Part shown: piece by piece, positions 18,401 through 33,018 of the stretch
Layout of the letters: each line of letters opens with the position of its first letter
Position numbering within the stretch: the stretch's first letter is position 1
From: a virus
Length of the DNA: 33,768 bases
IMG/VR virus record: IMGVR_UViG_3300017755_000037
Span: 1 to 33,768 of that record
Reading direction: 5' to 3' (one strand)
Position numbers and translations under genes: made by a program
The notes under the pieces: model-generated
Told to the model about the DNA's origin: nothing
The model's database searches: none
The model's input: the letters and a program-made list of their open reading frames with translations, nothing else

Positions 18401-21400
18401 ACATGATTTGATCCTGTAGTAGATTCAATCTTTGATATTCCAATTTCATTACCAGTGTCTAAATTATAATCATCAGTCGCAGTTTTTGTTATGCTATTAG
18501 TTGCATCACAAATATCAACTTGACCAATCAAGGAAGACTTAGCATGGGATTGTGCTCCCTTTGGATCAGATTGTGGATTGTCTCTATCTAATTGAGGATA
18601 GAGATTTCTTACTGGTTGGGAATATCTATCATTACTAAATGGTGAAACTGTTGGTGATGTTGCGGTTTCAACTAAGGTCAGATAATATACGCCATCCTGT
18701 TCTCCTGTGATGTACTTTCTCTTCTCATTAATTCTGTATACATAGTAGATTTTAGGATAATCTAATCTCTTAAAGTATGGAAGAGAGGTGTTTCTTGTAC
18801 TAGTGTTATTTGTGATTGTTCCTGGGTTTGTTGTTAATCCAACAGTAAACTGTTTTGCACTAGAAATACCAGAAACTACAAACTCTCTGTTAAAACCAAG
18901 TTTTTCTGTACCAGCAGAATTATTTGTACTTGTGATATTTTGTAGTCCAACTCTGGTTCCTACCGTGAGTTTATGTGGAAGTTCAGTGTTGATAGTTGCT
19001 GTATCAGATCCATTCCATTCTGCATTACTAATGAATCTAAGGTTTCTATGTTGTATTGCATTGGATAGAGAACCTGTACCATAGTATTTTCCTATTTCTA
19101 CATCTGTTGATCCAATTGAAGTATTGGATTCTTGAACAATATAACCATCAATAGGAGGTCTTGCAGTAGATGTTGAAGTCTTTGGAATAATATAACGTGC
19201 ATGATAGATTCTATCAAAGGAGTTTCTATCATCAGTCAATCTCTTAATGAAGGTTCTAGGAGTTGCATCACCAAAAGAGGTAGATCCTAAACCTACAATA
19301 TTGGTATAGATTGCATTTTCTGTTGATGCAAGAGATACATTGATATACCAATGAGAATTGTTAATATCATATTGAATTGGGTGTCCAATATCATTAGGAT
19401 TCTTATCACTTACTCTACTTTGAATAGATAATTCTCCACCTTTATTATTAAAGGATATTGCACTATCATTAATAGCATCATTAAGTGTTTTTGCAAGCTT
19501 GATATTTTGTGTTGTAGAAATACCAGAAGAGGATGTAATTGCAAAATAAACAGTGTTTGAATCAAGACCATCGGGTAAGTGACCATTTTCACTCATAACT
19601 CGAACACTTTCACCATTGATAAAGGAATGATTTTCTTTAAGGCTTATAACATTCAGTACGCCACCAATACTACTAGAACCAATACTATTGATACCGGCGA
19701 TACTTCTTCCAACAGCGTGTGTCTTACGAGCACTTAATTCTCTAGTTGATTGATGATGTGCAAAGTCATCACTAACAGGCATAATGATACGTGAAGCATA
19801 CTCTTGTAAGTTTCCTGTAGTATCAGAGTAAACAAAACATAATTGATCATTTGTTCTTGAACCAACTCTATATCCCTGTAGAATATGTTCTGGTGGTACA
19901 TCAGCGTTCTTCTGCTCATACAGATAAAGTCTTCCTGTAGAACCAACACCAATAGAACTGTGAGTAACTGGTAATGTTTTTAGAATATCAATTGCTAAAA
20001 ATTCAATTGATTTTTCCTTAATAGGAACAGATCTTGGTGGAATAAGGTGTGTTATATAACCATGGTCATCTGCATTAAACGATTGAGGTCTGAATCCTTC
20101 AGATACAAGTGCAACAGCACCAAAGTTAGAGTTAGAGTTCGTAAGAGAAATATCTCCACCATTTACAGTAGAGAATTGTTCAGCATAACCAATTGCGAAA
20201 CAAGAAACTGCCTGAATAACTGAATTATTGGAAGACCTAATATGGAAGTTTCTATAACTTGGTTTATGTTTTGCTTTAGAATTATTGCTTAAGGTTTCGT
20301 TTCCAGCAGTGGAACTATCGTCATATAATCCGGTTGATGGAGAGTTATCATTGAACAAAACAAAAGCTTTATCATCCTTTTGTAGTCCAATTCCAGTGAA
20401 CTGAGCCACAACCATTGACTTGAATCCGGTTGCTTTTCTACCATCTGCCTCCATACCGCACATGCCAAATACAGATCTCAAAGAGATATTGAAGATATAT
20501 GGAGATGCAGATGTTACTGTATCTGATTGGAGAGACAAAGTTGCTCCAAATACAGAGGGTAACAGGTTACCTGGAATTGTTTGTGTATTGAACTTAACTT
20601 CTGTTGAACTTACTTTTTCAGAAACAACATACTGACCATTATATCCACCAGCAGTGACTCCTTCAATTCTGAATGGAGTATCGACTTCTAAACCAGTAAC
20701 TGAGGAATCTGTTGTTACTGTGAATACAGTTGATCCAGTGACACCATCTCCAGATTTTATACTAGAAATACCAACAGCGACACCAGTAGAACCAACAATT
20801 CTATATTCATCAATCTTCTTCTCAATATCAATGTCAGTACTTGGATAATCTGGAGCAATAGTTCTTCCAGAAGATTGACCATAAACTAGACTGATCTTCT
20901 CATAATACATATCAAGATCAGTTCTATCAGTAACAAAATTGCTTATAAAATCATCATCGATAGCAACATTGTTAAGACCATCTGCATATTCAAAACAAGA
21001 CAGTTTGTGGTGTGAGAAGTTAGGAACAAATGTGTTTGTTGTATAATCTTTATATACGGATCCATTTGGATCTGCATCAAACATAGAGAACTGCCAGAAA
21101 TAGCATCCTCCAGTTATTCTAAAGATAGAACATCTTTCAATCTGGTCATTTTCTGGGTCTGGAACATATTTTGCTCTTATCTTTGTTTTACGAAGATCTA
21201 AACCAACCAAAGAAGTTCCTCTAGGAACTATAACACCGCCATGAATACTATTCAGTTTATGTAATTCATTGGTAACACTATTAACGTCAAAGTTACTATT
21301 CAAGTCATATTGTGGAAGATCGTTAGTTGTTCCACCATTCCTTAATCTATAATTATTGGTTCCATCTGGAATATATCCTGGGCGATTATCAATCGTATGT

Positions 21401-21630
21401 TCACCAGGATATATTAGAATAGTTGTTTTACCAAACCTATCATTATTCAATCCCCTTTGATATGAAAATCTAGCCGACTCTATCAAAGCACGCTGAATAG
21501 TCTTAAAGGGTCGTGTAAGAGAGTTACCCTTATTCTCAATACTATCTGTTGAATCCAGGTCGTTTGGATTCACATAAAGAATGGTTCCGCGTGAAGATTT
21601 CAGAAAATTATCTAACCTGGAAAGACCCAT
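15433..21630 (-). CDS. Giant structural protein with N-terminal beta-helix-like domain and fibre-like C-terminus (2065 aa)
   Basis: The N-terminus (about 1-250) has the signature of a right-handed beta-helix of the pectate-lyase-like (DUF1565-like) type: ILYVNPNDLDSTDS, RPFKTIQRALIESARF, TTILIYPGEHTIDN and HGGVIVPRGTSLVGLDLRKT. Such domains in phages form rigid stalks or act on polysaccharide. The middle is a long series of beta-rich modules (for example NGQYVVSEKVSST and LTLTGITTSSNL). From about 1600 the sequence becomes fibre-like (GGVGIGTSANEFDLNVMG near 1700), resembling the downstream fibre genes. The C-terminal domain ends MYGIVGGQNFS, an ending I associate with large structural proteins of T4-like cyanophages. 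The ATG has a poor ribosome site; a terminator lies just upstream, so a new transcript probably starts here. No catalytic residues could be assigned. Confidence 0.85.
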   Translation of the reverse strand: MGLSRLDNFLKSSRGTILYVNPNDLDSTDSIENKGNSLTRPFKTIQRALIESARFSYQRGLNNDRFGKTTILIYPGEHTIDNRPGYIPDGTNNYRLRNGGTTNDLPQYDLNSNFDVNSVTNELHKLNSIHGGVIVPRGTSLVGLDLRKTKIRAKYVPDPENDQIERCSIFRITGGCYFWQFSMFDADPNGSVYKDYTTNTFVPNFSHHKLSCFEYADGLNNVAIDDDFISNFVTDRTDLDMYYEKISLVYGQSSGRTIAPDYPSTDIDIEKKIDEYRIVGSTGVAVGISSIKSGDGVTGSTVFTVTTDSSVTGLEVDTPFRIEGVTAGGYNGQYVVSEKVSSTEVKFNTQTIPGNLLPSVFGATLSLQSDTVTSASPYIFNISLRSVFGMCGMEADGRKATGFKSMVVAQFTGIGLQKDDKAFVLFNDNSPSTGLYDDSSTAGNETLSNNSKAKHKPSYRNFHIRSSNNSVIQAVSCFAIGYAEQFSTVNGGDISLTNSNSNFGAVALVSEGFRPQSFNADDHGYITHLIPPRSVPIKEKSIEFLAIDILKTLPVTHSSIGVGSTGRLYLYEQKNADVPPEHILQGYRVGSRTNDQLCFVYSDTTGNLQEYASRIIMPVSDDFAHHQSTRELSARKTHAVGRSIAGINSIGSSSIGGVLNVISLKENHSFINGESVRVMSENGHLPDGLDSNTVYFAITSSSGISTTQNIKLAKTLNDAINDSAISFNNKGGELSIQSRVSDKNPNDIGHPIQYDINNSHWYINVSLASTENAIYTNIVGLGSTSFGDATPRTFIKRLTDDRNSFDRIYHARYIIPKTSTSTARPPIDGYIVQESNTSIGSTDVEIGKYYGTGSLSNAIQHRNLRFISNAEWNGSDTATINTELPHKLTVGTRVGLQNITSTNNSAGTEKLGFNREFVVSGISSAKQFTVGLTTNPGTITNNTSTRNTSLPYFKRLDYPKIYYVYRINEKRKYITGEQDGVYYLTLVETATSPTVSPFSNDRYSQPVRNLYPQLDRDNPQSDPKGAQSHAKSSLIGQVDICDATNSITKTATDDYNLDTGNEIGISKIESTTGSNHVITTDVEHNLNSIVNVSFANFGANYGSLSGSDEVYYNAKLVGTGSSSNGVHATAKVTVGSGGSITNLKIMDGGSAYEVGNTLTLTGITTSSNLTEAAIVVDNVRNDVGQTIRVSGITTRSLLHYNDVYRITDIQAGAGRSFTVSSASTFTSFASSFDGNATAAAGYYLTGEEIRINTFAYDYTSGIATVTTLNHHGLDAGRVITLGGADQELYNGSFAITEILDQLSAQSHSFSVNIGVGTTAPTQTGTMFAYHEGHSANNSAMSDSAAETIRGRMTNFYAGISTTLQSAVANLTDTSITIRNVGRYDLNIGDYLSVNDEIMRVKTTTSTSSVTGNAGTLENGDAITVFRGVLGTRASAHVANTTIRKVNVIPIEFRRHSIIRASGHTFEYVGYGPGNYSTGFPDKQDRQISSQEELLAQSAKRGGGINFYTGMNDKGISYSGNKRLSTITGREEIFDTPVQSITGEDILGSERLNVISPLEGVFDRSIRVDGGNSGESISQFNGPLVINNKLVVNSSKGVETDNLFLQGEATVARKYTVGLGTPTLAGNPGDLVYNANPDQGGSAGWIYTRSNVWRSFGTISLDTDLKEDIFSKVGIATTTSGDKRLLVWSGTKQFSVDENGGVGIGTSANEFDLNVMGRVNIDGETLVSGASTVGNRLVVTSGGVHVSGSSTIQGVGVATIGTGEGVGGGVSISAVGSATTVYYYGDGSNLVNLNADQVGWIRQGNNLSYEDVLNGSVGIGTSIPTGGTASDFLLGYSLTVGSAVVGTSGTSIHIHDDAHVTGQITINNGIHVTSGISTILGNYSIGSTATTIGKIVGTHITSTDLNISGITSITQLRVAGITTTEDHSYLHSFSEKSLAASISSGILTLQMNQAQNFEVTISETITKLILAGVPVATANDSNGSSGANNSMSFTIKFTQASDANYAVDIDDFEYNSSSVEVRWPGNVVPTVSRANSAIDIYSFKCFDLENINSVGMYGIVGGQNFS

Positions 21631-21660
21631 CTTATTTGCACTATAAGTTCTGTTATAGAT

Positions 21661-21668
21661 TATTTAGC
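21661..21668 (-). promoter_or_regulatory. Possible late promoter GCTAAATA
   Basis: The minus strand reads TGCTAAATAATC between the terminator and the start of the 2065-residue gene. It differs from TATAAATA at two positions, but it is the only candidate in the short gap after a strong terminator, where a promoter would be expected. Confidence 0.35.
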
Positions 21669-21672
21669 ATTG

Positions 21673-21705
21673 AAAAAGGGGCAACCACTTTCGTAGTTAC
21701 CCCTT
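21673..21705 (-). terminator. Strong intrinsic terminator (13-bp stem, GAAA loop, T-tract)
   Basis: On the minus strand, 21705-21693 pairs along its whole length with 21688-21676: 13 pairs including two G-T pairs. The loop is GAAA (21692-21689), and a run of five T follows (21677-21673). The GC core is GGGG/CCCC. It closes the small-gene and tRNA block and precedes the 2065-residue gene. The plus strand lacks a T-run after the stem, so termination acts on minus-strand transcription. Confidence 0.9.
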
Positions 21706-21732
21706 CCGCACTTCCTTCACACAATGTATATA

Positions 21733-21903
21733 TTACTCTTCTTCTAACTCATTGTCAAGTATATACTCCACGGTTGTTGCAACATCATTCATAGCACTAC
21801 GAAGTTCTTTTTGAGTTCCAGTGTGCTGAGTCATTACATTAGTTTCTGTGAGTGACCACCGCCACTGCTCCATTTTTTGATTGTACCATAAGTTTATAAT
21901 CAT
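21733..21903 (-). CDS. Small hypothetical protein (56 aa)
   Basis: The reading frame starts at the ATG complementary to 21901-21903, two bases after the stop of the 89-residue gene, and ends TAA at 21733-21735. The product begins MIINLWYNQKMEQWRWSLTE and ends in an acidic helix (VEYILDNELEEE). A GTAGAG about five bases before the ATG can serve as ribosome site. An alternative start is the internal MEQWRW. The tight spacing to the gene before and the terminator 28 bases after it support a real last gene of the unit. Function is unknown. Confidence 0.6.
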   Translation of the reverse strand: MIINLWYNQKMEQWRWSLTETNVMTQHTGTQKELRSAMNDVATTVEYILDNELEEE

Positions 21904-21905
21904 AA

Positions 21906-22175
21906 TTACTCTACAGGCATGAGTTCTGGGTTTTCTAATTCTAACTCAAACATCATAGGATGACATTCTTCTGCTATCAAGTACATTGATGCGTTATACA
22001 TTTGTTCAACTTCCCATCGATGTTCGTTGTTTGCTAGGTCTAATACTTCGGGATTTTCCTTGGCAATCGAAGGCAGTTCATCAAAGGTAAATGGTATGTC
22101 TTGAATACAATATAATAATACTAAATATTGCCCCCGATTATACCAAGCATATTTGGTGCTAATCTTGTATTTCAT
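21906..22175 (-). CDS. Hypothetical protein (89 aa)
   Basis: I chose the ATG at 22175 (MKYKISTKYAWYNRGQYLV) over a GTG seven codons upstream, because the GTG has no ribosome site. The small protein has a beta-rich start and two helices (FDELPSIAKENPEVLDLA and HRWEVEQMYNASMYLIAEE) and an acidic tail. There is no signal peptide or convincing membrane segment. A CATAAATA motif at 22198-22205 may drive it with the 56-residue gene that follows two bases later. I do not recognise the family. Confidence 0.7.
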   Translation of the reverse strand: MKYKISTKYAWYNRGQYLVLLYCIQDIPFTFDELPSIAKENPEVLDLANNEHRWEVEQMYNASMYLIAEECHPMMFELELENPELMPVE

Positions 22176-22197
22176 ACCTGTGGTATACCCTAGCACT

Positions 22198-22205
22198 TAT
22201 TTATG
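22198..22205 (-). promoter_or_regulatory. Late promoter motif CATAAATA
   Basis: The minus strand reads CCCATAAATAAGTG, 22 bases upstream of the ATG at 22175 and outside any gene, just after the tRNA-Leu gene. It matches the NATAAATA late motif and could drive the last two small genes up to the terminator. Confidence 0.6.
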
Positions 22206-22256
22206 GGAGTGGGGTTTATTCTTACCACGAATAGCATAGTCTACTGTTTTAGTCAA

Positions 22257-22329
22257 TACCCGTGGCCGGACTCGAACCGGCACTGTAAGCATTTTAAGTG
22301 CTCTATCTCTGCCTTTGGATTACACGGGC
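22257..22329 (-). tRNA. trnL(uaa): tRNA-Leu (anticodon UAA) with short variable loop
   Basis: A 73-base cloverleaf. The acceptor stem GCCCGTG/CACGGGT has seven pairs with a G-T end pair. The D-stem has three pairs (ATC/GAT), and its loop contains GG. The anticodon stem is GAGCA/TGCTT with loop CTTAAAA, giving anticodon TAA at 22296-22294. The T-arm GCCGG/CCGGC has loop TTCGAGT, and the discriminator is A. CCA is not encoded. The anticodon reads UUA, a common codon in AT-rich phages. The variable region is only five bases (ACAGT), whereas bacterial tRNA-Leu normally has a long variable arm. It lies three bases after the tRNA(CAU) gene and is probably processed from the same transcript. Confidence 0.88.
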
Positions 22330-22332
22330 AGA

Positions 22333-22405
22333 TGCTTCCTGAGAGGATCGAACTCTCCTTAGGCAAATTATGAGTTTGCTGCATTCACCAGATTGCTAAG
22401 GAAGC
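22333..22405 (-). tRNA. trnM(cau): tRNA with anticodon CAU (Met, or Ile2 if modified)
   Basis: A 73-base cloverleaf. The acceptor stem GCTTCCT/AGGAAGC has seven perfect pairs. The D-stem has three pairs (GCA/TGC), and its loop contains GG. The anticodon stem GCAAA/TTTGC has loop CTCATAA, giving anticodon CAT. The variable loop is CTAAG, the T-arm is GAGAG/CTCTC with loop TTCGATC, and the discriminator is A. CCA is not encoded. The CAU anticodon fits elongator tRNA-Met, or tRNA-Ile2 after lysidine modification by the host; the sequence alone does not decide. An initiator is unlikely because the anticodon stem lacks three G-C pairs. Confidence 0.9.
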
Positions 22406-22412
22406 AAAAAAA

Positions 22413-22583
22413 TCAGGAAATTAAATTACCATACTTATCATAGGTGGGAGGATGAAAAACACAATACTCATTGAATGTAATCTTCATTTCCTTCTCTGTT
22501 AGGTTGCAATTCTTTGCTGCCTTGGGTAAGTTCCATTTCGCCGCGAACAACATTTCCATAGATTGACGGGTTTCTGGTCTCAT
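22413..22583 (-). CDS. Small helical protein, possible HTH-like (56 aa)
   Basis: The frame starts at the ATG complementary to 22581-22583 and ends TGA at 22413-22415, seven bases before the tRNA pair. The product begins MRPETRQSMEMLFAAKWNLP and continues with KAAKNCNLTEKEMKITFNEYC. The helix-turn-helix-like pattern (AAKNCNLTEKEMKITF) suggests a small nucleic-acid-binding protein; I associate this type with conserved small cyanophage proteins. There is no clear Shine-Dalgarno sequence. It overlaps another short frame (22468-22635) in a different phase. The composition looks more protein-like than the alternative, so I favour this one, though both may be translated. Confidence 0.55.
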   Translation of the reverse strand: MRPETRQSMEMLFAAKWNLPKAAKNCNLTEKEMKITFNEYCVFHPPTYDKYGNLIS

Positions 22584-22635
22584 AGTCGTAGCACTTTAGA
22601 ATTTCTTTGTGAAGAGAGTAATGATAGAAAATCAT
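22468..22635 (-). CDS. Possible small protein overlapping the 56-aa gene (55 aa)
   Basis: The ATG at 22633-22635 overlaps the stop of the preceding 61-residue gene (ATGA), the classic coupling arrangement. The frame ends TGA at 22468-22470. The product begins MIFYHYSLHKEILKCYDYET and ends with a polar tail (QPNREGNEDYIQ). The first 20 residues look plausible for a real protein; the rest overlaps the neighbouring 56-residue frame in another phase. Either both are used, or the overlap marks an ancestral single gene split by a frameshift. Function is unknown. Confidence 0.35.
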   Translation of the reverse strand: MIFYHYSLHKEILKCYDYETRNPSIYGNVVRGEMELTQGSKELQPNREGNEDYIQ

Positions 22636-22817
22636 AATGCTACCAGAGGATCGGAATACGACAACATATCTTCAGGACAATCATTACGAACTACCTCAAG
22701 AACACTGAAAAATTGCTCCATAGTTTCACAATCAACCACTTTCTCATCACCTTCATCAGAATACAAATAAAACTTGCGGTCCATTGGATTGACTACGCAG
22801 CGAGCAAGGAATGCCAT
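22632..22817 (-). CDS. Small hypothetical protein (61 aa)
   Basis: This 61-residue protein begins MAFLARCVVNPMDRKFYLYS and continues with an acidic stretch (DEGDEKVVDCETMEQFFSVL). The pattern suggests a beta hairpin followed by a helix. It is soluble, with three cysteines. The gap before it reads TTATAATAAC on the minus strand, which could be a bacterial-type -10 box, followed by AAGAGAAC as a weak ribosome site. It opens the small-gene and tRNA island. Function is unknown; the family is not recognised. Confidence 0.65.
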   Translation of the reverse strand: MAFLARCVVNPMDRKFYLYSDEGDEKVVDCETMEQFFSVLEVVRNDCPEDMLSYSDPLVAL

Positions 22818-22841
22818 AGTGTTCTCTTGATTACCTTGTTA

Positions 22842-23564
22842 TTATAACGCCACCTGCTGCCTTTCGGTGCCACCGTATTCCACTTCTAGTTCTGGCACGT
22901 CCTTGCGGGTTCCGTTGACCGTGTAATAGCAATCAATATTGGAAGCATTGGCTGACCTAATCTTAACTCTTCTTCCCCATTCAATTGCTTCTACAATTAA
23001 ATCTTGAGAAGAACCAATTTGAGTTAGAGTAACAGTAATACTTTCTGGATCAACAAGACCTCTCCAATATTCTGGAAGTTCAATAACATTTTTATTAGTT
23101 AATCGTCCACGATGATATACACCATGTTCTGGTCCTTCCAAACAAGCATGTCTCAACCTATGTTCTTCTTTAGTAGGGTGAGAAATATCGAATAGTTTTG
23201 CTTGAGCACTAAAGGCAAGAGCAGAACAAGTACCAGTAAATGTAGCATTCGTTGCGAATATATCACCAGTGATAGCAATACCACCAGTACCAGTAATACC
23301 AGCAGTTGATGCATTGGTTCCTGGGTTTACAATGAAAAGACTATTGATTTTTCCCATTTGGTGATAGAAAGGTTCACATGCCTCGTCTGGATAGTCATCT
23401 TCACCTGAATTTCCATACCAAATAAATTCATGAGTAGTAACAGGTCTACCCCATCCTCCTGGATTGTATGTGCTATCACACTCTTTTGTGGGAGCTGGTC
23501 TCATTTCACCAGGAAACTCCGCATCTTTTGGTTGACCGGGTGAAAGTTCTAAATTGTCTGCCAT
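22842..23564 (-). CDS. Virion protein with shared C-terminal HPTK/LRH domain (240 aa)
   Basis: The N-terminal 95 residues are unique, with many Pro, Gly and Trp (ECDSTYNPGGWGRP, HEFIWYGNSGEDDYPDE), followed by a short Thr/Gly-rich stretch (ITGTGGIAITGDIFATN). From about 122 to 232 comes a domain with FDISHPTKEEHRLRHA, LEGPEHGVYHRGRLT, IELPEYWRGLVDPESITVTL and CYYTVNGTRKD. This domain recurs at the C-terminus of many fibre-like proteins of marine phages. The upstream neighbour carries the same domain, so the two are paralogues. The ATG has AGAGGT ten bases upstream. A fibre or baseplate-appendage role is inferred; the enzymatic or chaperone nature of the domain is not established here. Confidence 0.8.
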   Translation of the reverse strand: MADNLELSPGQPKDAEFPGEMRPAPTKECDSTYNPGGWGRPVTTHEFIWYGNSGEDDYPDEACEPFYHQMGKINSLFIVNPGTNASTAGITGTGGIAITGDIFATNATFTGTCSALAFSAQAKLFDISHPTKEEHRLRHACLEGPEHGVYHRGRLTNKNVIELPEYWRGLVDPESITVTLTQIGSSQDLIVEAIEWGRRVKIRSANASNIDCYYTVNGTRKDVPELEVEYGGTERQQVAL

Positions 23565-23573
23565 AATTTACCT

Positions 23574-24335
23574 CTATACGTTTTTAGATTGTAAGTATTC
23601 TGAATTATCTCCTGGATAATCTCTTGGAGATGTGCCTTCATATTCTGAAATGTTTCTTTCACAATCTCTTCGTTCTCCATATACATGGAAGAAACAATTA
23701 ATAGGCATACCACCTCTTGATTGTAACATTACTTTGTTTTTTACAATACCTTTTACAATTACATCTTGATGTGCTCCAATTGGAGTTAAGTTTACCGTAA
23801 TTGTTGAAGGGTCAACAAGTTCTCTCCAGTAATCAGGAAGAACAATTTCTTTTGTATTTGTAACTCTTCCTCGATAATATACATCTGCAGTAGGACCTTC
23901 TGGAGCAACATGTCTCAATCTCCACCCATCTTTTGTTGGGTGATTAATATCAAAATCTTTCTTTGCTGCTAAGAAGTTTCCAGAATAATCATGAACGATA
24001 CTTCCAGATAATCCTCCTCCACATTGAATTCTAAAGTTTACATCAAGATTCCCCATGACTGCTTGATTAGCAGAAACACAAAGTGAGTATGGATTGCTTA
24101 AACCTAAAGGTAATGCACCAGGCACAAGACTGAGTGGTGCATCTGGATTTGAATTAGGTCCAACCATCAAGGTAGCATATGGAACTGGAAAATGAAGACC
24201 TTCGCCAATTACACATGGACCTTGAATATGAGAAGATCCATTAACTCTAGCGTTTCCTTCTCCAACAGCAGGAGATATTCCATTACCAACTTTAAGTTGT
24301 CCGCCAACCCTTAAGTCATCAAATTGAAAAGACAT
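23574..24335 (-). CDS. Virion protein with shared C-terminal HPTK/LRH domain (253 aa)
   Basis: Residues 1-120 are beta-rich with a fibre-like start (DDLRVGGQLKVGNGISPAV) and many Pro/Gly turns. Residues 125-233 carry the domain FDINHPTKDGWRLRHV, EGPTADVYYRGRVT, IVLPDYWRELVDPSTITVNL and CFFHVYGERRDCER, closely matching the 240-residue protein downstream. The N-terminal halves of the two differ. The ATG is preceded by TAGGA twelve bases upstream; only nine bases separate it from the next gene. It lies between the spike-like protein and its paralogue, so it is probably a tail-tip or fibre component. Function is otherwise unknown. Confidence 0.8.
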   Translation of the reverse strand: MSFQFDDLRVGGQLKVGNGISPAVGEGNARVNGSSHIQGPCVIGEGLHFPVPYATLMVGPNSNPDAPLSLVPGALPLGLSNPYSLCVSANQAVMGNLDVNFRIQCGGGLSGSIVHDYSGNFLAAKKDFDINHPTKDGWRLRHVAPEGPTADVYYRGRVTNTKEIVLPDYWRELVDPSTITVNLTPIGAHQDVIVKGIVKNKVMLQSRGGMPINCFFHVYGERRDCERNISEYEGTSPRDYPGDNSEYLQSKNV

Positions 24336-24344
24336 TTCTTATTC

Positions 24345-24977
24345 CTATGTATTGTTGTATTTCTTTTGAGTTCTCTGGAGACTATTCCAGGTATCTTTTA
24401 CCGCACATGCATCGGTCACTCCCTTACACATACCTCCATAAATTGTAAGAACGCCACTAGCAATAACTTCAGCAGATCCTGAAGTCATTAATCTATAAGT
24501 TGAGTTAGCTTTTACAAGGAAATCCTGTGCCTCACATACTATATTTTGTGATGCATTCAGACGAATGTTTCCTTTGCCCGTGCCCTCACCTACTGCAACT
24601 AATTCAATGTCAGTTCCCTGCATTCTAATTTTACCATTAGTTGCCGTAATAAGAATATTACCATTTTCTGCGTGAATTGCCAAGGAGTCTTGTGCCTCTT
24701 TATTATCATACCCACAACTCAATGAAATATTACCAGGAGCAGTCATTTGTGTCCACCCCTTTCTATTACCACTTCTATCAAGTGTTATAGAATGCCGACC
24801 ATCATGTGCCTGTAAGAGCACTGATGATGTTACATTCGCAGTTTCATGAATATGCCCAAATGATATACTACCATGATCATTTCCATAATAAAGAGCTGTA
24901 TAATTTTGCTCCGCATTTGTTGGTTGTCCACCTCCGCCAGTATACCTATTGGGTTGTGAATGTTGATTAGTTGGCAT
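24345..24977 (-). CDS. Beta-helical baseplate spike-like protein (210 aa)
   Basis: After a flexible Gly/Pro/Gln N-terminus (1-25), residues about 60-185 are a regular run of short strands: VLLQAHDGRHSITLDRSG, NISLSCGYDN, SLAIHAENGNILITATNGKI, NIRLNASQNIVCEAQDFLVK and TYRLMTSGSAEVIASGVLTI. This resembles the C-terminal beta-prism of T4 gp5 and the VgrG/P2 gpV spike, where three chains form the membrane-piercing needle. A GHIH motif (41-44) recalls the HxH iron site at some spike tips, but here it is near the N-terminus. The gp5-like protein in this window lacks such a needle, so this gene may supply it. One base separates it from the upstream stop. The spike role is an inference. Confidence 0.7.
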   Translation of the reverse strand: MPTNQHSQPNRYTGGGGQPTNAEQNYTALYYGNDHGSISFGHIHETANVTSSVLLQAHDGRHSITLDRSGNRKGWTQMTAPGNISLSCGYDNKEAQDSLAIHAENGNILITATNGKIRMQGTDIELVAVGEGTGKGNIRLNASQNIVCEAQDFLVKANSTYRLMTSGSAEVIASGVLTIYGGMCKGVTDACAVKDTWNSLQRTQKKYNNT

Positions 24978-24978
24978 T

Positions 24979-27900
24979 TTATTCTATATCTTGAAGAGTT
25001 CCGGGAATGTTAAGTCTAGGATCATTGGATCTGATGTCCGTGCCTTGCCTTAGGATTGCAGAAGGTGGAGTAGTAACCTCAGAGTCGATGCTCTCCTGTA
25101 AGTTATCATATACTCTTACTAATTCACCAGCAGTTTCATACACACCAGCATAAAGAGCTCCATCTCTGATAAATGTCTGACCAAAATACGCCCTCCCATC
25201 TATGTATCCGGTCTGTTTCAATCCAACCAAATCAGTAACTTGAATGAGTGTTTGTTCATCAACACCAATTGGATCTCTAACAACTCTGAATTTAGGTCTC
25301 AGAACTGCATTGATTCCTGTATCAGATATGATTCTAACCGTAGGAATAGAAGTGAATCCTCTTCCAGGATTTTCAATATCAACTCCAATAATTCTTCCGA
25401 ATGGACCAGTTCTAATTCTACCTCTAAATCCACCAAATTGTCCTGGACCAACTAAACCACCACGACCAGGAACACCATCAGGACTACCAGGAGTGACTGG
25501 GCGTCCACTATCATCATTAGGATCTGTAATAAGAGATGTGGTTGGATCAGGAAGTGTACCAGTTCCACCACCTCCGGTAGACGGTGTTCCATCCTGATTA
25601 GGATCATATGTTTCTCCATCACCATCAGAGGTTCGATCAGGAGGAGGTAAAGTTCCAGTGCCTCCACCATCACCATCACCGGGGTCAAATATTCCTGGAG
25701 TATTTGGAGAATCATCGAAGAATCCCCCTGCAGGAACTAGTGGACCAGATGAACCATCTGAGGGATCACCCGTGCCTGGATCATCAAACCCACCAATCAA
25801 TCCTGGAGAAGGTAGTGGATCAAATGGTTCAAAATCGCCAGGTATGATTACTATTGGATCGGTTGGTTTATATTCAATTCCTGGATTAACAACTTCAATT
25901 TCATCTAGTTCAAGAAGAACTGGGTATCCGGGACCAACGACAGGAGTATATCCAACACCAGGATTGACAATAACAACATCAGTAACAATTCCAACACCAC
26001 TTGTGTCTTGAGGACAAGGTGGTGGAATCAGCATCGCAGATACGCCGACAGGATTTTGTCTCCATGACCTAGGGTCATCAATTTTTTTCGGTTCTGGAGC
26101 AAAAATTTGGAGCCCAACATAAACTGGATTTAGGTTGAAGTTAGTTCCTGGTATATTAGCATTTTCCAATATGACTTTTATATCATAAGTTCCGGATTTT
26201 ATTCTCCTTTTCTTAGTCTTAACAACACCAATGGATGATGTTTGAATTGCCTTTGTATATTTTGAATCCCTTTGCTTTGAGCGTTTTATAAAAACTTGTA
26301 CAACATCATCACATATAGTTTTAAATTTATAATTTCCATCAAATTCAAATTCAATATTTTCCCATTCAAATTCCCATGTTCTACCTTGAAGTTCAAACTT
26401 TTCAAGTCTACCGCCCGAAAGGAAAGGTGTTATGAGCTTACCCATTTTAGTTTCTCTGGAAGCTTTTGTATAACTGGCAATAGTAGGTCCAGTATAACTT
26501 ACTCCCTTTAACTTTCTAACAGGTTTAGCTGTTTTGAACTTTGGATCATAAACAAACTTTCTGACCTTTACATAACTATCTCCACCATTTTCTGATCCTT
26601 TACCAGGTGCTTGACCACCGGGACCAACAACAACCTCTAATGTAGCACCTGCAGGCAATCTCACAGTATCTCTTGCATATGCACCACCAGAACCACCACC
26701 ACCAGACACAACCTTTCTCTTTGCGATAAGTTTGCGTGTTGAGTCCCCTAAAATTGTTCTGTCGGTATATGTTCCAATAACTTCTTCAATTTCTTTACGT
26801 CTGCCTCTATCTGAATTACCAGATCCACCACCACCAATACAATACATTCTAACCATAGTAAAATTCAGATCTCCAGGTTCTGATTGTGGAACTTGTATTT
26901 CATATTTTCCTGGTTTTGTATAAGTCACAGATCTACCAGTAGATCCCCAAATAATTTTTACACCACCATCACCGCCATCACCAGCAACAGCTCCGTTACG
27001 GCTACCGCCGCCTCCACCGCCACCATATGCACCTTGTCCTCCAGAGTTTGAATCACTACGGATTTCATCTTCATCACCACGTTGTTTTCCCTCAAAGTCA
27101 GCACCATAACCACCATCAATAGTTCCACCTTTTCCAGATTTTGCAGTTTTTCCTCCTTTTAATCCGGCACCACCACCGTTAGCTCCACCACCTTCTTGTT
27201 CATCAGATGATCCTGGACCACCTTTACCTGAAAGTTTTCTATCACCAACAATTACTCTACCAACCTTTTTTTGCTTTTTACTTGATAATCCACCATAACC
27301 ACCACCTGCATGACAGATAACTTCTTGTTTGACTGTTTCTGTTCTTAATTTTTTTGTATCAACAATCCAGTCTTGAGTATCAAAGATTTTCTTATCAACA
27401 ATTTTGAAATGATCTTTTGTTTCATTTTCAACTTCAATCTTAATTGTTTGCTTTCCCTCTCTTAGTTTAACTTTTCGCAAGTCAGGTTCTATTTTCTTAA
27501 ATCCATCAAGACTAAATCGTTGTCCTCCAATAGATATATGACCTCTATTATCAGATGTTCCTTTTATCCCATAAAATCCATCATAAGGAATGTCTACAGT
27601 CCATGATTTCTCCCAGTTATTTACGCCATTAGGAGTTGCACTACCTTTATTGGCTCTTGGTTTAATTGGAGATACAGCATATCTATTCATAAAAGGAGAC
27701 CATCTCCTATCAAAGACAGGAGTCCATCTATCGTCGCTGCTACCTTTATTATACCTAGATGTCCATAGAGGGTTATTTGGGCATCTACCTCTCGGTGCGG
27801 GAGGATCTTCTCTTGGTACTGGTGGACTAGGTGCATCAATAGTTAATGCAATACCGAATGGATTTTGATTCCACGATAGATCAGTTAGAACCCCTCTCTC

Positions 27901-30900
27901 AATAGCACGCAACTTAATATCAATTGCAACTCCCATTGGATTACCAGCAGTCAGTGATTTGCCTGGTAACTGAGTAAGTTCTACTCTAATTCTATACTTT
28001 CCTTTCTTAAAGAATTTTGTTACATCCTGATAGTTATTTTTCCTTCTTAATTCTAAAACACTATTAGTTTCACTGATTGTTTCATCACCACCTCTTAAAA
28101 CATCTTTTAGACCATTACCAATAGCCTTTTTACCCTTCCCACTTGAGTTACCAATAAAAAGTTTTGCACTATCATCTGCTTGCATAGCAATACTATAATT
28201 TCCATCCTCAGGAAAATCAATGCTTTCCCAGCGAATGATATGAGTTCCTTCATATGCATCGGAAGAAACTTGCGTTTTATTTGAGCTATTGTCTTTTAGT
28301 AACCTTACGCTATCAATTTCAAGTTCTGCATTGTTATCATAACCATTATCAATATTATCATCAAATCCGATTGAGGTATCATCGATTTTCTTATACCCAC
28401 TACTTCCACTACCACCTATTTGCGTAACTCTATATTTTCTACCCGCAGTAAATTCGCCACTACCAAACTTGGTATCTTTTTCTCTCCATTCACCACTTAA
28501 ATATGTCCCATTATCTCCTATTCTTCCTCTCTTAATACTAACTTCACCGTTATCACTATCAATACGTACTTCTTTCAATGCTAAACCAGAACTATCTGGA
28601 TCATCATCAATGTCTAATTTAAAATTAACTTTTACTCTACCAGTTCCATCAACCTTCAAGAAAATTTTACTATTTTCTTTTACAAACTTTACTGATGGTC
28701 TTGTTGCTTCAATAGCTTGAACTCTTCCAGGATCGAAAGGTGTAACACCAGATTTATTAAGGAATGAAAAGTTAGTAGAGTTTGACTTAACTATTGGATT
28801 CATCTTCCACAGTTGACGGTCAGCTTTTTTTCTATATTCGTAAGTGTTGAAAATGTTTCTTTGTGAGTTGGATTTTCTTGTTTCTTTAGTTCCACCAATA
28901 CTAATCGTCCTACTTACATCACCCTTCTGTCCAGATCTTGACCAATTTGTTCCATTAATTTCTACACCAGAAAGAGCGGTTCCTGCATTACCTGGATCAT
29001 CATTCCAACTCAACTTCAAGTTAGCCTGTCCTTGACCTACTAATTTTCTACCATCTGAAGAAAATTTAACCTTACCACTTCTTATTTCAAATTTAGCATT
29101 GGTATCTCCACCATCACCATCTACAAACTCTATTACTTTTCTATTACTAGAAACATTAAGGTTTCTATTTCTAGGATGTAATTTTATGTAATTAATATTA
29201 ACTTCGCTATCAACTATAACTGTTTCTGTTGTCCTTCCTATTCTTTTTCTTGGTTCTTTTATAGAATCTTGTTCGTTTTCTAACTGTAAAATTATGTTGT
29301 ATATGCCCTCTTCAATTGTTTTTGTAATCTTTGTTGGGGTTTTCTTATTCTTAACTCTACCTTTTATCTTCTCCAGTTCCATTTCAAGAACTTCGCCCTT
29401 TTGTGGACTTGATAACCTCATAGTGGAGTATGTATCTGCAATACCCTTAAAGGTATAATTGCCAGTATATGGGAAATATTCCTGCCAAGTTATTGTAAAC
29501 TGTTCTCCCTGTCGATCCGTTCCAGGAATGTCTGATGGGGGTTGAGGAGAAACTGCATAAGTATTCATAAAAGTATCATCAATCACAACCCTGGGTTCTT
29601 TCTTAACAGAGTCTCTAAAATTAAGTCTATATTCTAAGTCATAAGTGTTTCTTCTACTTACACCGGATTTTTTCTTAGGATTCTCGTCTTTTACGGTCGA
29701 TTTATTAGTTGCTATGAATCTACCGCGAGTACAGTTTATCTGTATATCATCGTTATCATTTGCAGATGCAACATAATCTGCAAAAATTACTGTTCCTATT
29801 GATCTTTTCTTTACACGACCAGTTTTTTGATTAACAAGACCCTTTTCTTGATTATTAATACCATCTCTATTCGTAGAACTTCCATCAGAGGTCCTAATTA
29901 AACCCTGTTCAATTCCTCTATCAAAGTTTTTAACTTTTTTTCTTGCAGAAGATTCTACTTTATATGTTGTATTAGCCTTTACTTTCTTAATAACCTTTTT
30001 ATTTCTTCCACTAACGCCAGAAGCCAGACCTTTTATCTTAAAAGTATGATCCCCGTCTACTTCAGTAAAAGTAAACATTAAATCTCTATTTCTCTTAGAC
30101 CCCTGAGAATATATGTCAAATTCAACTTCAACTAACCCAGTATTCTTCTCTGGTTTGATAATATCGCCACCCCAGTAAGGATGTTCAACTGCATGAAGAA
30201 TTCTACTGTATCTTGTTACTGATGCAACCTCAATTGGTCTAAACTCTCTACTGGACCACCATGGTGCAGGAAGTCTTTTTAAAAAATCTTGATACTTAAG
30301 AACTTCAAAACGTATGGGGTCTCTTGTTATGTTGATATAATCATCTGGATTCCATGCTCCAAGCTCCTCTCCATTTACACCATATCGTACTCCCCAATCA
30401 GTATTATCAAAATTAGGAGATAATGAAAAATCTAATTTTTCAAATTCATTTTCATCTGTAAAAGTTTCTATCTCAGTTCTAATAACTTCTCCTATTAGAG
30501 AATTTGCTGTTGCACCTAAACCTTTTTTCGTTGAATCTACAAAATTAACCAATGGTGCATATTGATATCCATATCCATGATGAATAATATCAACAGCAAG
30601 TATAGAACCGTCTCTTCCAACGACTACGTTCCCTTGTGCTCCTACTCCTCCACCACCAAGAAACTGAACATTAATGTCTTGTAACTTTGGAGGATTATTT
30701 TTATTAAACTGAATACCTTCACAATTTCTTCCTGGAATAGAATTAGGTACTACATCACTAACCTGTAACTGATTAACTTCATTGATATTATAATATTCTA
30801 CCTTATCTCTGTTAGTGACAATAAATTGAGCACCAGGATTTAACTCAGCATACTTATTTGCATCATAGATGGTAATATTGTCGACGAACCCAACGTCAGG

Positions 30901-30960
30901 ATGAATATATCCCACACGAATGTCTTTTCTTTGAGTATTACCAAAAATGTTTAGAGACAT
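24979..30960 (-). CDS. Giant modular adhesin-like baseplate protein with PA14-like modules (1993 aa)
   Basis: The N-terminus (1-155) includes a GYIHPDVGFVDNITIYDANK start and a GxGY repeat (IIHHGYGYQYAPLVNF). Four PA14-like beta modules lie near 463-520 (YFPYTGNYTFKGIADTYST), 905-940 (DFPEDGNYSIAMQADDSAKL), 1087-1145 (DIPYDGFYGIKGTSDNRG) and 1520-1560 (EFEFDGNYKFKTICDD). PA14 modules often bind carbohydrate. A duplicated module (LKLSWNDDPGNAGTALSGV near 650, FKLDIDDDPDSSGLALKEV near 780) and WxQNPxG motifs (near 1030, 1632) separate them. Gly-rich stretches span about 1214-1424, and an acidic Pro/Gly linker spans about 1711-1856. NPGxGY repeats end the protein. A GATAAATA motif precedes it; the ribosome site is weak. 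Placed after the hub gene, it is probably a baseplate-attached appendage; carbohydrate binding is inferred. Confidence 0.85.
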   Translation of the reverse strand: MSLNIFGNTQRKDIRVGYIHPDVGFVDNITIYDANKYAELNPGAQFIVTNRDKVEYYNINEVNQLQVSDVVPNSIPGRNCEGIQFNKNNPPKLQDINVQFLGGGGVGAQGNVVVGRDGSILAVDIIHHGYGYQYAPLVNFVDSTKKGLGATANSLIGEVIRTEIETFTDENEFEKLDFSLSPNFDNTDWGVRYGVNGEELGAWNPDDYINITRDPIRFEVLKYQDFLKRLPAPWWSSREFRPIEVASVTRYSRILHAVEHPYWGGDIIKPEKNTGLVEVEFDIYSQGSKRNRDLMFTFTEVDGDHTFKIKGLASGVSGRNKKVIKKVKANTTYKVESSARKKVKNFDRGIEQGLIRTSDGSSTNRDGINNQEKGLVNQKTGRVKKRSIGTVIFADYVASANDNDDIQINCTRGRFIATNKSTVKDENPKKKSGVSRRNTYDLEYRLNFRDSVKKEPRVVIDDTFMNTYAVSPQPPSDIPGTDRQGEQFTITWQEYFPYTGNYTFKGIADTYSTMRLSSPQKGEVLEMELEKIKGRVKNKKTPTKITKTIEEGIYNIILQLENEQDSIKEPRKRIGRTTETVIVDSEVNINYIKLHPRNRNLNVSSNRKVIEFVDGDGGDTNAKFEIRSGKVKFSSDGRKLVGQGQANLKLSWNDDPGNAGTALSGVEINGTNWSRSGQKGDVSRTISIGGTKETRKSNSQRNIFNTYEYRKKADRQLWKMNPIVKSNSTNFSFLNKSGVTPFDPGRVQAIEATRPSVKFVKENSKIFLKVDGTGRVKVNFKLDIDDDPDSSGLALKEVRIDSDNGEVSIKRGRIGDNGTYLSGEWREKDTKFGSGEFTAGRKYRVTQIGGSGSSGYKKIDDTSIGFDDNIDNGYDNNAELEIDSVRLLKDNSSNKTQVSSDAYEGTHIIRWESIDFPEDGNYSIAMQADDSAKLFIGNSSGKGKKAIGNGLKDVLRGGDETISETNSVLELRRKNNYQDVTKFFKKGKYRIRVELTQLPGKSLTAGNPMGVAIDIKLRAIERGVLTDLSWNQNPFGIALTIDAPSPPVPREDPPAPRGRCPNNPLWTSRYNKGSSDDRWTPVFDRRWSPFMNRYAVSPIKPRANKGSATPNGVNNWEKSWTVDIPYDGFYGIKGTSDNRGHISIGGQRFSLDGFKKIEPDLRKVKLREGKQTIKIEVENETKDHFKIVDKKIFDTQDWIVDTKKLRTETVKQEVICHAGGGYGGLSSKKQKKVGRVIVGDRKLSGKGGPGSSDEQEGGGANGGGAGLKGGKTAKSGKGGTIDGGYGADFEGKQRGDEDEIRSDSNSGGQGAYGGGGGGGSRNGAVAGDGGDGGVKIIWGSTGRSVTYTKPGKYEIQVPQSEPGDLNFTMVRMYCIGGGGSGNSDRGRRKEIEEVIGTYTDRTILGDSTRKLIAKRKVVSGGGGSGGAYARDTVRLPAGATLEVVVGPGGQAPGKGSENGGDSYVKVRKFVYDPKFKTAKPVRKLKGVSYTGPTIASYTKASRETKMGKLITPFLSGGRLEKFELQGRTWEFEWENIEFEFDGNYKFKTICDDVVQVFIKRSKQRDSKYTKAIQTSSIGVVKTKKRRIKSGTYDIKVILENANIPGTNFNLNPVYVGLQIFAPEPKKIDDPRSWRQNPVGVSAMLIPPPCPQDTSGVGIVTDVVIVNPGVGYTPVVGPGYPVLLELDEIEVVNPGIEYKPTDPIVIIPGDFEPFDPLPSPGLIGGFDDPGTGDPSDGSSGPLVPAGGFFDDSPNTPGIFDPGDGDGGGTGTLPPPDRTSDGDGETYDPNQDGTPSTGGGGTGTLPDPTTSLITDPNDDSGRPVTPGSPDGVPGRGGLVGPGQFGGFRGRIRTGPFGRIIGVDIENPGRGFTSIPTVRIISDTGINAVLRPKFRVVRDPIGVDEQTLIQVTDLVGLKQTGYIDGRAYFGQTFIRDGALYAGVYETAGELVRVYDNLQESIDSEVTTPPSAILRQGTDIRSNDPRLNIPGTLQDIE

Positions 30961-30998
30961 ATTTTCTGCAAAAACTTATATGCTTTCTTAAGTACTAT

Positions 30999-31006
30999 TA
31001 TTTATC
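30999..31006 (-). promoter_or_regulatory. Late promoter motif GATAAATA
   Basis: The minus strand reads TGCGATAAATAATAG, 38 bases upstream of the 1993-residue gene. The TAA within it is the stop codon of the gp5-like gene. It matches the NATAAATA late motif. Confidence 0.6.
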
Positions 31007-32789
31007 GCACTGGACGTACATCTGCTCTAGGAGGATCTCTATGATTAACTTTTTCTTGATCCTTCCTTGGTTTGGCGAATGGTTTAACTTTCGACCTATT
31101 AGATTTGGATTCCTTCGTTGCTACAGCGTCATTAACAGATTTTGAACTTGGTAACTGTGCCTCTGTCTGACCACCACTACCTTCACATAAGGTATAAAAA
31201 TCAGAAGCAGATACGTTCAAATTAGCAGAACAACCAAAAACATTAATATTCAACATGTCAAAATCAAGAGCAGCAGTAATGCTTCCTTGAATATCTGGAA
31301 TTTGATCCATAACTCCACTAAGATCTTTGGTAAGACCTGCAATTGATTTCTGAATTTCTGAAGTAAAATTACCAATATTTTCTAATAAAATTTCATTTGC
31401 CTCCTGAATATCATCCTTTCTCTCTGCAATTGCATTTACTACAAGATCTTCAGCATAACAAACTGGAACATTAGGAAATGTCTGAAATTCCTCTCTATTT
31501 TTAATAGATTGTTTAGCACTTTTTGTTAATCCTTTAATATCAAGAGCATCCATTATTCCACCAAGAATTAACTCAGTTAATTGATCAGATATCTTTCCAT
31601 ACAAACAGGATATCAATTGTGTGGTTTGTTCTTTCATATCGGCAACTAAATGCCTAAACGTAGATGGAGTTGAGGATACAAGAACAGATAATCCCTGATT
31701 AAGAATTTTGTTAACATATCCAATCAATTTATCAAAAATAATTTTCATGTACTTGGATATTTTTTTAGCTCCTTGTGAGATGAGATTTTTAAGTGCTTCT
31801 TCTGTATTTTCTATTATAGAAACACTCTCAATGTAACTTTGAAAGGACTGAATATACTTATCAATTCTTGTAACCAAATTATCAATTTCAGTTTGTATCG
31901 CCTTGATAGCAGACTCTACAGGTTTATCAGGTTTCATCAATGCAATTTTATTGCAGTATAAATCCTGTCTTTTAACATCTGCTGCAGATAATTGATGTAC
32001 ACCATCTGCATTCTCTATTGCTGCTCCAGATTGTGGACTGCTTAATGGAGATCGCTCAGACTGCTTTTGTCTTTCAAGAGATTTTTTTACTTTTTCTGCT
32101 ACAAATGCTTCTCTTTTTTCTCTCGTTAATACTCTCTTGTCTGCAGTTGCTTCTGCATCACTAATATATCCACGTATAGTGTCATTATATGGTATATTAG
32201 TAGGTAATCCAAACTTATCGACAGCTGTACCAGGAGAGGGTTGTGCAAGATATGACGATTGCCCTGCTTTGCTAGTTCTTAATTTATTATCCGGAAGAAC
32301 TTCTCTAGTTTTTTCTGTCTTTGGAACTGCTCCTCTAGCAATACCACTTCTTGCAATTATTCCTGGTGTGGCGTCGGTAACTTTATTATCACCAATTGTT
32401 GAAGAAAGTGGTGTTTGAGAATTATTTCCCAACACTCCCATGATAACTGGAACCTGTTGATCTTTCTCATCTAAGAAAAATCCAAACACCATGTTACCTT
32501 GACGAAGATTGGGTGTCTGTGAAGCAGCTGCCTGACCACCACCAGCAGTAACAGGATACATTATGTTTGCCCAAGGCAAATCTTGAGAGGGAATATTTAC
32601 CTCCCCCATATCATGTAGACCAATAATTCTGACTTTATATCTTCTACCCCAACCCTTTACTGAGTTTGGATCATCATATTTTCCAGGAATTATATTATCC
32701 CGCCAAGTTGAATCGTCGGCAATTTGCCCAACCCACCAATTAAAGTTGGATCCTAAAAACCCTGGATTAAAAGTTGCTGCTCCTTCCAT
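31002..32789 (-). CDS. gp5: gp5-like baseplate hub OB-fold protein, lysozyme-less (595 aa)
   Basis: The N-terminus (about 15-145) matches the OB-fold of T4 gp5: NWWVGQIADDSTWRDN, GRRYKVRIIGLHDMGEVNIP, LPWANIMYPVTAGGG, GNMVFGFFLDEKDQQVPVIM and GVLGNN. In T4 this ring sits under the gp27 hub and carries lysozyme and needle domains. Here, residues about 150-260 are a polar linker and about 275-480 are helical and coiled-coil-like (for example IKAIQTEIDNLVTRIDKYIQ), ending in a Lys/Arg/Pro tail. No lysozyme or beta-helix region is visible. I chose the ATG at 32789, joined to the previous stop as TGATG with GAGG four bases upstream; an in-frame TTG one codon earlier would have almost no spacing. 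The gene follows the gp27-like hub gene, as expected for partners. Confidence 0.88.
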   Translation of the reverse strand: MEGAATFNPGFLGSNFNWWVGQIADDSTWRDNIIPGKYDDPNSVKGWGRRYKVRIIGLHDMGEVNIPSQDLPWANIMYPVTAGGGQAAASQTPNLRQGNMVFGFFLDEKDQQVPVIMGVLGNNSQTPLSSTIGDNKVTDATPGIIARSGIARGAVPKTEKTREVLPDNKLRTSKAGQSSYLAQPSPGTAVDKFGLPTNIPYNDTIRGYISDAEATADKRVLTREKREAFVAEKVKKSLERQKQSERSPLSSPQSGAAIENADGVHQLSAADVKRQDLYCNKIALMKPDKPVESAIKAIQTEIDNLVTRIDKYIQSFQSYIESVSIIENTEEALKNLISQGAKKISKYMKIIFDKLIGYVNKILNQGLSVLVSSTPSTFRHLVADMKEQTTQLISCLYGKISDQLTELILGGIMDALDIKGLTKSAKQSIKNREEFQTFPNVPVCYAEDLVVNAIAERKDDIQEANEILLENIGNFTSEIQKSIAGLTKDLSGVMDQIPDIQGSITAALDFDMLNINVFGCSANLNVSASDFYTLCEGSGGQTEAQLPSSKSVNDAVATKESKSNRSKVKPFAKPRKDQEKVNHRDPPRADVRPVR

Positions 32790-33007
32790 CAATCCTCGTA
32801 AATTCTACATTCATCTGTTTCTGGATTCTCATCACAATACATTTCAAGTGGGGTAGGATCGTGATTTTCATCAGGATGATTTGCCTGATAGTGTTCTAGA
32901 TGATGCAACTCGTCCTCTGTATGACGGCGCATCTGTGGAGATAGTGTTGGATTGTCCAACAAATCTTTATCATCGTTGATGTGTTGTTGGATAGTTTTAT
33001 TTGACAT
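32789..33007 (-). CDS. Small acidic protein of the baseplate hub cluster (72 aa)
   Basis: This 72-residue protein begins MSNKTIQQHINDDKDLLDNP. It is rich in Asp, Glu and His, with a helical centre (RRHTEDELHHLEHYQANHP) and an acidic C-terminus containing two cysteines (YCDENPETDECRIYED). Its stop shares one base with the start of the gp5-like gene (TGATG), implying coupled translation. Placement between the hub and OB-fold genes suggests an assembly factor or minor hub component, but nothing in the sequence proves it. I recall small proteins like this in marine T4-like phages without known function. Confidence 0.75.
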   Translation of the reverse strand: MSNKTIQQHINDDKDLLDNPTLSPQMRRHTEDELHHLEHYQANHPDENHDPTPLEMYCDENPETDECRIYED

Positions 33008-33010
33008 TTT

Positions 33011-33018
33011 AATTTATG
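33011..33018 (-). promoter_or_regulatory. Weak late-promoter-like motif CATAAATT
   Basis: The minus strand reads GCATAAATTAAAATG, directly before the 72-residue gene, with the stop of the hub gene (TAA) inside the motif. Two positions differ from TATAAATA, and the spacing to the ATG (only a few bases) is too short for a normal leader. I list it as a weak candidate only. Confidence 0.2.

Follow-up and report, generated by a model that had tools for sequence, protein, structure and literature searches.

The gene at 22257-22329 on the minus strand of the window, by which we mean the whole 33,768-nucleotide stretch of viral DNA that was analysed (IMG/VR record IMGVR_UViG_3300017755_000037), very probably encodes a working leucine tRNA of a marine cyanophage, belonging to a widespread family with a short variable arm. 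This reading is anchored in a cloverleaf supported by tRNA models and by comparison, in membership of the family, in the exclusively leucine anticodons found within it, and in the retention of elements recognised by LeuRS. The likeliest role of the window tRNA, as read from sequence, would be to supply leucine tRNA for a codon that the phage favours. The family itself is large and little described; its members occur in numerous phages and actinobacteria and in one group of cyanobacteria.

Sequence, fold and identity elements

The 73-base gene with its short variable loop is identified as tRNA-Leu(UAA) by ARAGORN, by Rfam and by a stem-by-stem reading. ARAGORN, the check that the preliminary description of this DNA had proposed, predicts a minus-strand tRNA-Leu(taa) at 22256-22330, and the Rfam tRNA model (RF00005) scores 22257-22329 at 53.9 bits over model positions 1-71, against a gathering score of 29. 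Read 5' to 3' by stems, the sequence is GCCCGTG TA ATC CAAAGGCAGA GAT A GAGCA CTTAAAA TGCTT ACAGT GCCGG TTCGAGT CCGGC CACGGGT A, with seven acceptor pairs (GCCCGTG/CACGGGT, the first of them G-U), three D-stem pairs (ATC/GAT), five anticodon-stem pairs including one G-U (GAGCA/TGCTT, around the loop CTTAAAA) and five T-stem pairs (GCCGG/CCGGC). ARAGORN and sequence reading place the anticodon UAA (positions 34-36) at 22294-22296 on the minus strand, and the sequence has its discriminator A73 at 22257 on the same strand, with no encoded CCA after it. These readings bear out the preliminary description of a 73-base tRNA with anticodon UAA, a three-pair D-stem, intact stems throughout and just five bases, ACAGT, between the anticodon stem and the T-stem. 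That variable loop (22282-22286, minus strand) ends in U48, the expected partner of A15 according to the covariation of positions 15 and 48 in relatives. Class II tRNAs are those with a variable arm longer than 10 bases (as defined in the available text of PMC7609411), and the five bases of the window tRNA place it outside that class.

A pattern for the 3' half has a single match in the window, and 100 shuffles gave none. The bare transcript, folded for minimum energy, forms its acceptor and T-stems but leaves the D and anticodon arms unpaired (z -2.1, with equally good folding in 9 of 200 shuffles), so the cloverleaf rests on tRNA models and comparison, not on thermodynamics.

E. coli LeuRS requires A73, A15-U48, G18G19 and A20a, and leucylation is uncorrelated with the sequence or folding of the long arm, as given in the accessible portion of PMC9976931. 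All of these elements are present in the window tRNA: besides A73 and U48, its D-loop reads C13 A14 A15 A16 G18 G19 C20 A20a, under position numbers assigned by comparison with long-arm genes. Human mitochondrial tRNA-Leu(UUR) resembles it in being without a long arm and is charged via A73 and A14 (same portion of PMC9976931); animal mitochondrial tRNA-Leu is unlike it in being organellar and in having a weakly folded anticodon branch. We infer that host LeuRS would charge the window tRNA with leucine through the retained elements, the long arm being unneeded, and that the charged tRNA would read UUA, a codon heavily used by the phage. Among the 13 window ORFs counted, UUA accounts for 239 of 626 leucine codons and is the commonest choice. 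In alignments with proteins of phage Bellamy, window UUA codons fall on leucine in 58 of 120 columns, compared with 107 of 200 for the other five leucine codons; the alignment with S-T4 proteins gives a weaker signal (17 of 45 columns, compared with 43 of 99 for other leucine codons). Since the LeuRS elements are kept, leucylation by the host and reading of the phage's UUA codons would be the best explanation of the gene.

The genomic slot and its occupants in cyanophages

Records sharing DNA with positions 20000-33700 of the window are all Synechococcus phages (24 of 24), those examined being mostly Kyanoviridae, and the gene order of the window agrees with that of phage Bellamy. Three bases upstream of the leucine gene there is a CAU-anticodon tRNA (Met or Ile2; 22333-22405, minus strand; ARAGORN and Rfam), and downstream lies a small ORF (21906-22196, minus strand) with 67.5% identity to Bellamy gp24. 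The CAU tRNA is identical to that of S-CAM4, where it is followed, in the same order and at the same spacing, by an 85-base long-arm tRNA-Leu(UAA); in Bellamy, a long-arm tRNA-Leu(UAA) is followed by gp24, the orthologue of the small window ORF. By gene order, the short-arm gene of the window and the long-arm gene of Bellamy occupy one shared genomic slot. The window tRNA also has the usual features of phage-encoded tRNAs, being phage-borne, adjoining another tRNA gene and reading a codon that is common in the phage; it differs from the tRNA-Leu of neighbouring phages in arm class, not in kind. The CAU tRNA is variously labelled: Met by ARAGORN, pseudo for the S-CAM4 gene, and Ile2 for that of Sf-FS3 (a 92% relative). 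An Ile2 identity would fit the codon usage of the window ORFs counted, where 190 of 707 isoleucine codons are AUA.

The preliminary description had taken the gene for a tRNA-Leu whose long arm was missing, and had allowed that a sequencing error might have deleted it. The equal slot and order of the long-arm genes in S-CAM4 and Bellamy speak for such a deletion, or an assembly error, in the window genome, and in-place losses do seem to happen, given that a small short-arm type elsewhere has a long-arm-style D-arm. However, the same gene is present at 97.3% identity in the independent record of Synechococcus phage S-T4, and its two differences there together make one compensated T-stem pair, which contradicts a sequencing error. 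Moreover, differences from ordinary cyanophage tRNA-Leu(UAA) run along the whole of the gene. With the arm excluded, it matches the S-T4 gene at 64 of 66 positions, that of Synechococcus lacustris at 55 of 66 and those of S-SKS1 and Rhizobium phage RHph_I1_18 at 48 of 66 each, but four long-arm cyanophage genes, in the alignment that the preliminary description had called for, at just 35-37 of 66. This mismatch outside the arm means that a different gene sits in the window's slot. Judged on these comparisons, the window gene is neither an assembly error nor the product of arm loss from an ordinary cyanophage gene; the S-T4 copy and the non-arm positions rule out both, and we give them next to no credence. 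The idea of a reduced but working tRNA charged through A73 therefore survives in part: working order and charging through A73 appear well supported by the relatives and the kept LeuRS elements, whereas reduction within the window gene was wrong. The short-arm gene would instead have entered the slot as a different tRNA gene that replaced the usual long-arm one, with no arm loss in place.

The long-arm tRNA-Leu(UAA) genes of cyanophages and picocyanobacteria nevertheless share with the window gene the anticodon UAA, A73, U8, A14, A15, a GG-Y-A-G-A D-loop, a three-pair D-stem and U48. They differ in a variable arm that, in those compared, spans 15-17 bases against five, in having G13 and the T-loop TTCAA against C13 and TTCGA, and in sharing with it only 34-37 of 66 other positions. 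The idea that the window gene was copied from a host gene of the typical picocyanobacterial kind is likewise unsupported, since three cellular long-arm genes (L411-L413) match it at 34-37 of 66 positions outside the arm.

The more distant short-arm genes of S-SKS1 and RHph_I1_18 are annotated as tRNA-Leu. In the S-T4 record (MH412654.1; L002 1174-1573) the short-arm tRNA-Leu(UAA) carries no annotation, and neither do two adjoining tRNAs (Ile, Met) found by ARAGORN.

The short-arm family in viruses and Actinomycetota

We define the family by a D-arm CCAA..GG.AGAG, a leucine anticodon and a five-base loop ending in AGT; the window tRNA has the D-arm CCAAAGGCAGAG, the loop ACAGT and the anticodon UAA. 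Scanned with a pattern for the short 3' half, IMG/VR gave at least 120 matching stretches. Among the 120 matches listed, 117 passed a stem filter (at least six acceptor, four anticodon-stem and four T-stem pairs), the other three having a poor 5' half, and all 120 had A73, a base absent from the pattern. A second viral scan, which allowed a variable region of 5 to 27 bases, also matched at least 120 stretches, and 22 of the 120 listed were short. Thirteen of these 22 were shared with the first scan (eight visible among the matches listed) and nine were new, eight of which passed the stem filter; the other filter-passing rows among the matches listed had arms of 11 to 21 bases. The possibility raised earlier that short arms are simply standard in phage tRNA-Leu(UAA) thus holds only in part, for 22 of the 120 viral stretches listed.

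A third scan fixed the family D-arm and loop and constrained the anticodon loop only at Y32, U33 and R37, leaving the anticodon free, and matched at least 120 stretches. All 121 matches listed, in 120 stretches, carried leucine anticodons: TAA 88, CAA 19, TAG 9, CAG 2, GAG 2 and AAG 1. (A cellular tally of 101 TAA is no evidence on anticodons, those loci having been picked by UAA.) The scan required C or T at position 16, and the window gene, with A16, is not among its matches; we count it as a family member because of its likeness and its placement in the tree described below. These anticodons bear on the suggestion that the gene might have another identity, with UUA read otherwise, or be a decayed or regulatory tRNA-like element. 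An arm class unlike that of textbook tRNA-Leu and the poor folding of the bare transcript would fit such a reading, but the leucine-only anticodons of the family, the kept LeuRS elements and the alignment of UUA with leucine in both the window phage and S. lacustris all stand against it, and we consider it very improbable; UUA recoding finds no support in the family anticodons or the codon alignments either.

Four scans together supplied 181 five-base-loop UAA genes of viruses, of which 180 have A73 and all 181 have U8. The 15-48 pair is A-U in 155, G-C in 17, G-G in 6, A-C in 2 and G-U in 1 of the 181, most of which came from patterns that require U48; for the 51 genes fetched without that constraint the counts are A-U 25, G-C 17, G-G 6, A-C 2 and G-U 1, from which it follows that positions 15 and 48 change together. 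Where G15-C48 (17 of 181) or G15-G48 (6 of 181) replaces A15-U48, as in L151, L168, L209, L449, L456 and others, a reported LeuRS element is altered and A73 is kept. A separate short-arm type, with an ordinary long-arm-style D-arm and loops such as GTTTT or GTTCT (L141, L185, L201, L216, L448, L454, L471), apparently reflects a separate arm loss.

Over a genome collection, the short pattern gave at least 120 matches in at least 119 stretches, of which 108 of the 119 listed were Actinomycetota by title (including, among the matches listed, Mycobacterium, Nocardia, Rhodococcus, Microbacterium and Nocardioides) and 11 were others. Whole tRNAs accounted for 110 of the 120 matches listed, and A73 was present in all 120. 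These actinobacterial tRNA-Leu(UAA) genes resemble the window gene in the kind of D-arm, in A73 and in a five-base loop ending in AGT (the last set by the pattern), and differ in being cellular and in an acceptor that, among the matches listed, usually starts GCCCC. In a sample of 139 Actinomycetota genomes, whose centre genome was picked for carrying the short form, a UAA pattern open to any arm length matched in 122; the short form occurred in 29 of the 139, and in 28 of the 29 it was the sole match. Short here means rows of 31-32 bases, that is, a variable loop of 5-6, with the 5' halves read for a minority. For a good part of this phylum, then, the assumption of a long arm in bacterial tRNA-Leu fails.

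A further reading accepts a working leucine tRNA and holds that its short arm was selected for escape from host enzymes or toxins that take hold of the long arm or of host tRNA-Leu. It has been proposed that phage tRNAs withstand the tRNA nucleases of the host (available part of PMC10264068), but the enzymes described in the sources at hand are without reported action on cyanobacterial tRNA-Leu(UAA), and the presence of the short form in many Actinomycetota genomes, mostly as the sole match, leaves escape unneeded as an explanation. We regard selection for escape as unlikely, and supply of a leucine tRNA remains the preferred reading.

Fragments of this picture exist in the literature, each in the portion of the source available. 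The tRNA-Leu(UAG) of a mycobacterial tRNA gene cluster resembles the window tRNA in being specific for leucine and having a short variable loop, by which it differs from its isoacceptor at another site of that genome; it has another anticodon, and the likeness lies in a one-sentence description (PMC6582537). Short-armed tRNAs for Leu (type I tRNA-Leu), Ser and Tyr were counted among 571 tRNAs, viral ones included (PMC2474678). In M. tuberculosis only tRNA-Leu-2, 3 and 5 are named as long-looped like tRNA-Ser, which implies that some tRNA-Leu there is without the long loop (PMC11541572), and a human short-arm Leu gene was read as a tRNA-Met relative by the tRNAscan-SE authors (PMC8450103). In a search that left subscription journals mostly outside, and in partial texts, we found no published description of a short-arm tRNA-Leu family in phages or actinobacteria; parts of it may be known to specialists, and the genes perhaps stand in tRNA databases unremarked.

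A common, natural, armless leucine family suggests that bacterial LeuRS tolerates absence of the arm in vivo, as in vitro work on E. coli tRNA-Leu indicated, and offers an in vivo system for probing the purpose of the arm. It also warns annotators against calling short-arm Leu genes pseudogenes or wrong isotypes, and provides a marker for the passage of tRNA genes between phages and hosts.

The Synechococcus lacustris lineage and the history of the family

Many genomes of the family to which S. lacustris belongs (which we take to be Cyanobiaceae) have a long-arm UAA gene among the matches listed. A five-base-loop UAA match was found in 30 of 400 sampled S. lacustris relatives; by sequence, the S. 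lacustris type accounts for 28 of the 30, while the match in G058 is on a contig that carries phage-like genes and the one in G024 has the look of a chance match. With the long-arm gene so frequent in the family and a short match in only 30 of 400, acceptance of the short form by the LeuRS of the phage's own host is something we infer.

Nine long-arm tRNAs were read in each of two genomes, S. lacustris (G001) and G033, namely four Ser, one Tyr and Leu with CAG, UAG, CAA and GAG. Besides the short gene, no other UUA-reading tRNA was found in these two draft genomes, which may miss genes, and BLAST with a relative's long UAA gene yielded only their CAA and UAG genes; in G075 it gave two matches. 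One LeuRS per genome scored above the curated cut-off in the four genomes examined, S. lacustris included. Of the 24 UUA codons in leuS of S. lacustris, 21 fall on leucine in a long-arm relative; leuS of G033 and G075 has no UUA codons and is uninformative on this point. The short UAA gene in S. lacustris and G033 (L317 6618-6693; L409 1826-1900) was set against a relative's long gene (L411 2898-2981). The genes beside it in S. lacustris are presumably ndhL, one for a DUF3007 protein, and trpA, and the relative G069 has a long gene at the matching locus, in the opposite orientation relative to ndhL. The locus, the lone short UAA gene and the single LeuRS together point to an apparent replacement of an essential host tRNA-Leu(UAA) by the short-arm type in S. 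lacustris and G033, with a cyanobacterial LeuRS that would serve both forms.

A quick tree of 146 genes (66 columns, arm excluded, quick search, many forks without resolution) puts 81 of 85 short rows in one group together with one long row. The grouping branch has an SH-aLRT of 94 and is unstarred, and its one long row meets another long branch. Arm length changes five times on this tree, where shuffled labels need 47 changes on average; three changes are the minimum that starred branches impose. This pattern would fit a single large family together with a few independent losses. Apart from the S. lacustris genes, the group in which they fall consists of viral rows (SH-aLRT 90), which hints at a phage source of the S. 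lacustris short gene. Taken broadly, and tentatively enough that we put it somewhat below even chances, bacteria and phages may share a second, old leucine-tRNA architecture without the long arm, which spans six leucine anticodons, moves between phages and hosts, and in the S. lacustris lineage, probably coming from a phage, took the place of the essential host tRNA-Leu(UAA) at the chromosomal locus of the latter.

Nine loci of the genome collection (ten matches) have only a good 3' half (L247, L255, L264, L278, L297, L316, L318, L334, L341). No Rfam family scored above its gathering score in them and no 5' half was found by pattern within 1.5 kb, which does not support group I introns in the actinobacterial copies; 3'-end copies at the integration (attachment) sites of mobile elements are likelier than introns. 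The viral loci L086, L109 and L115 resemble these nine.
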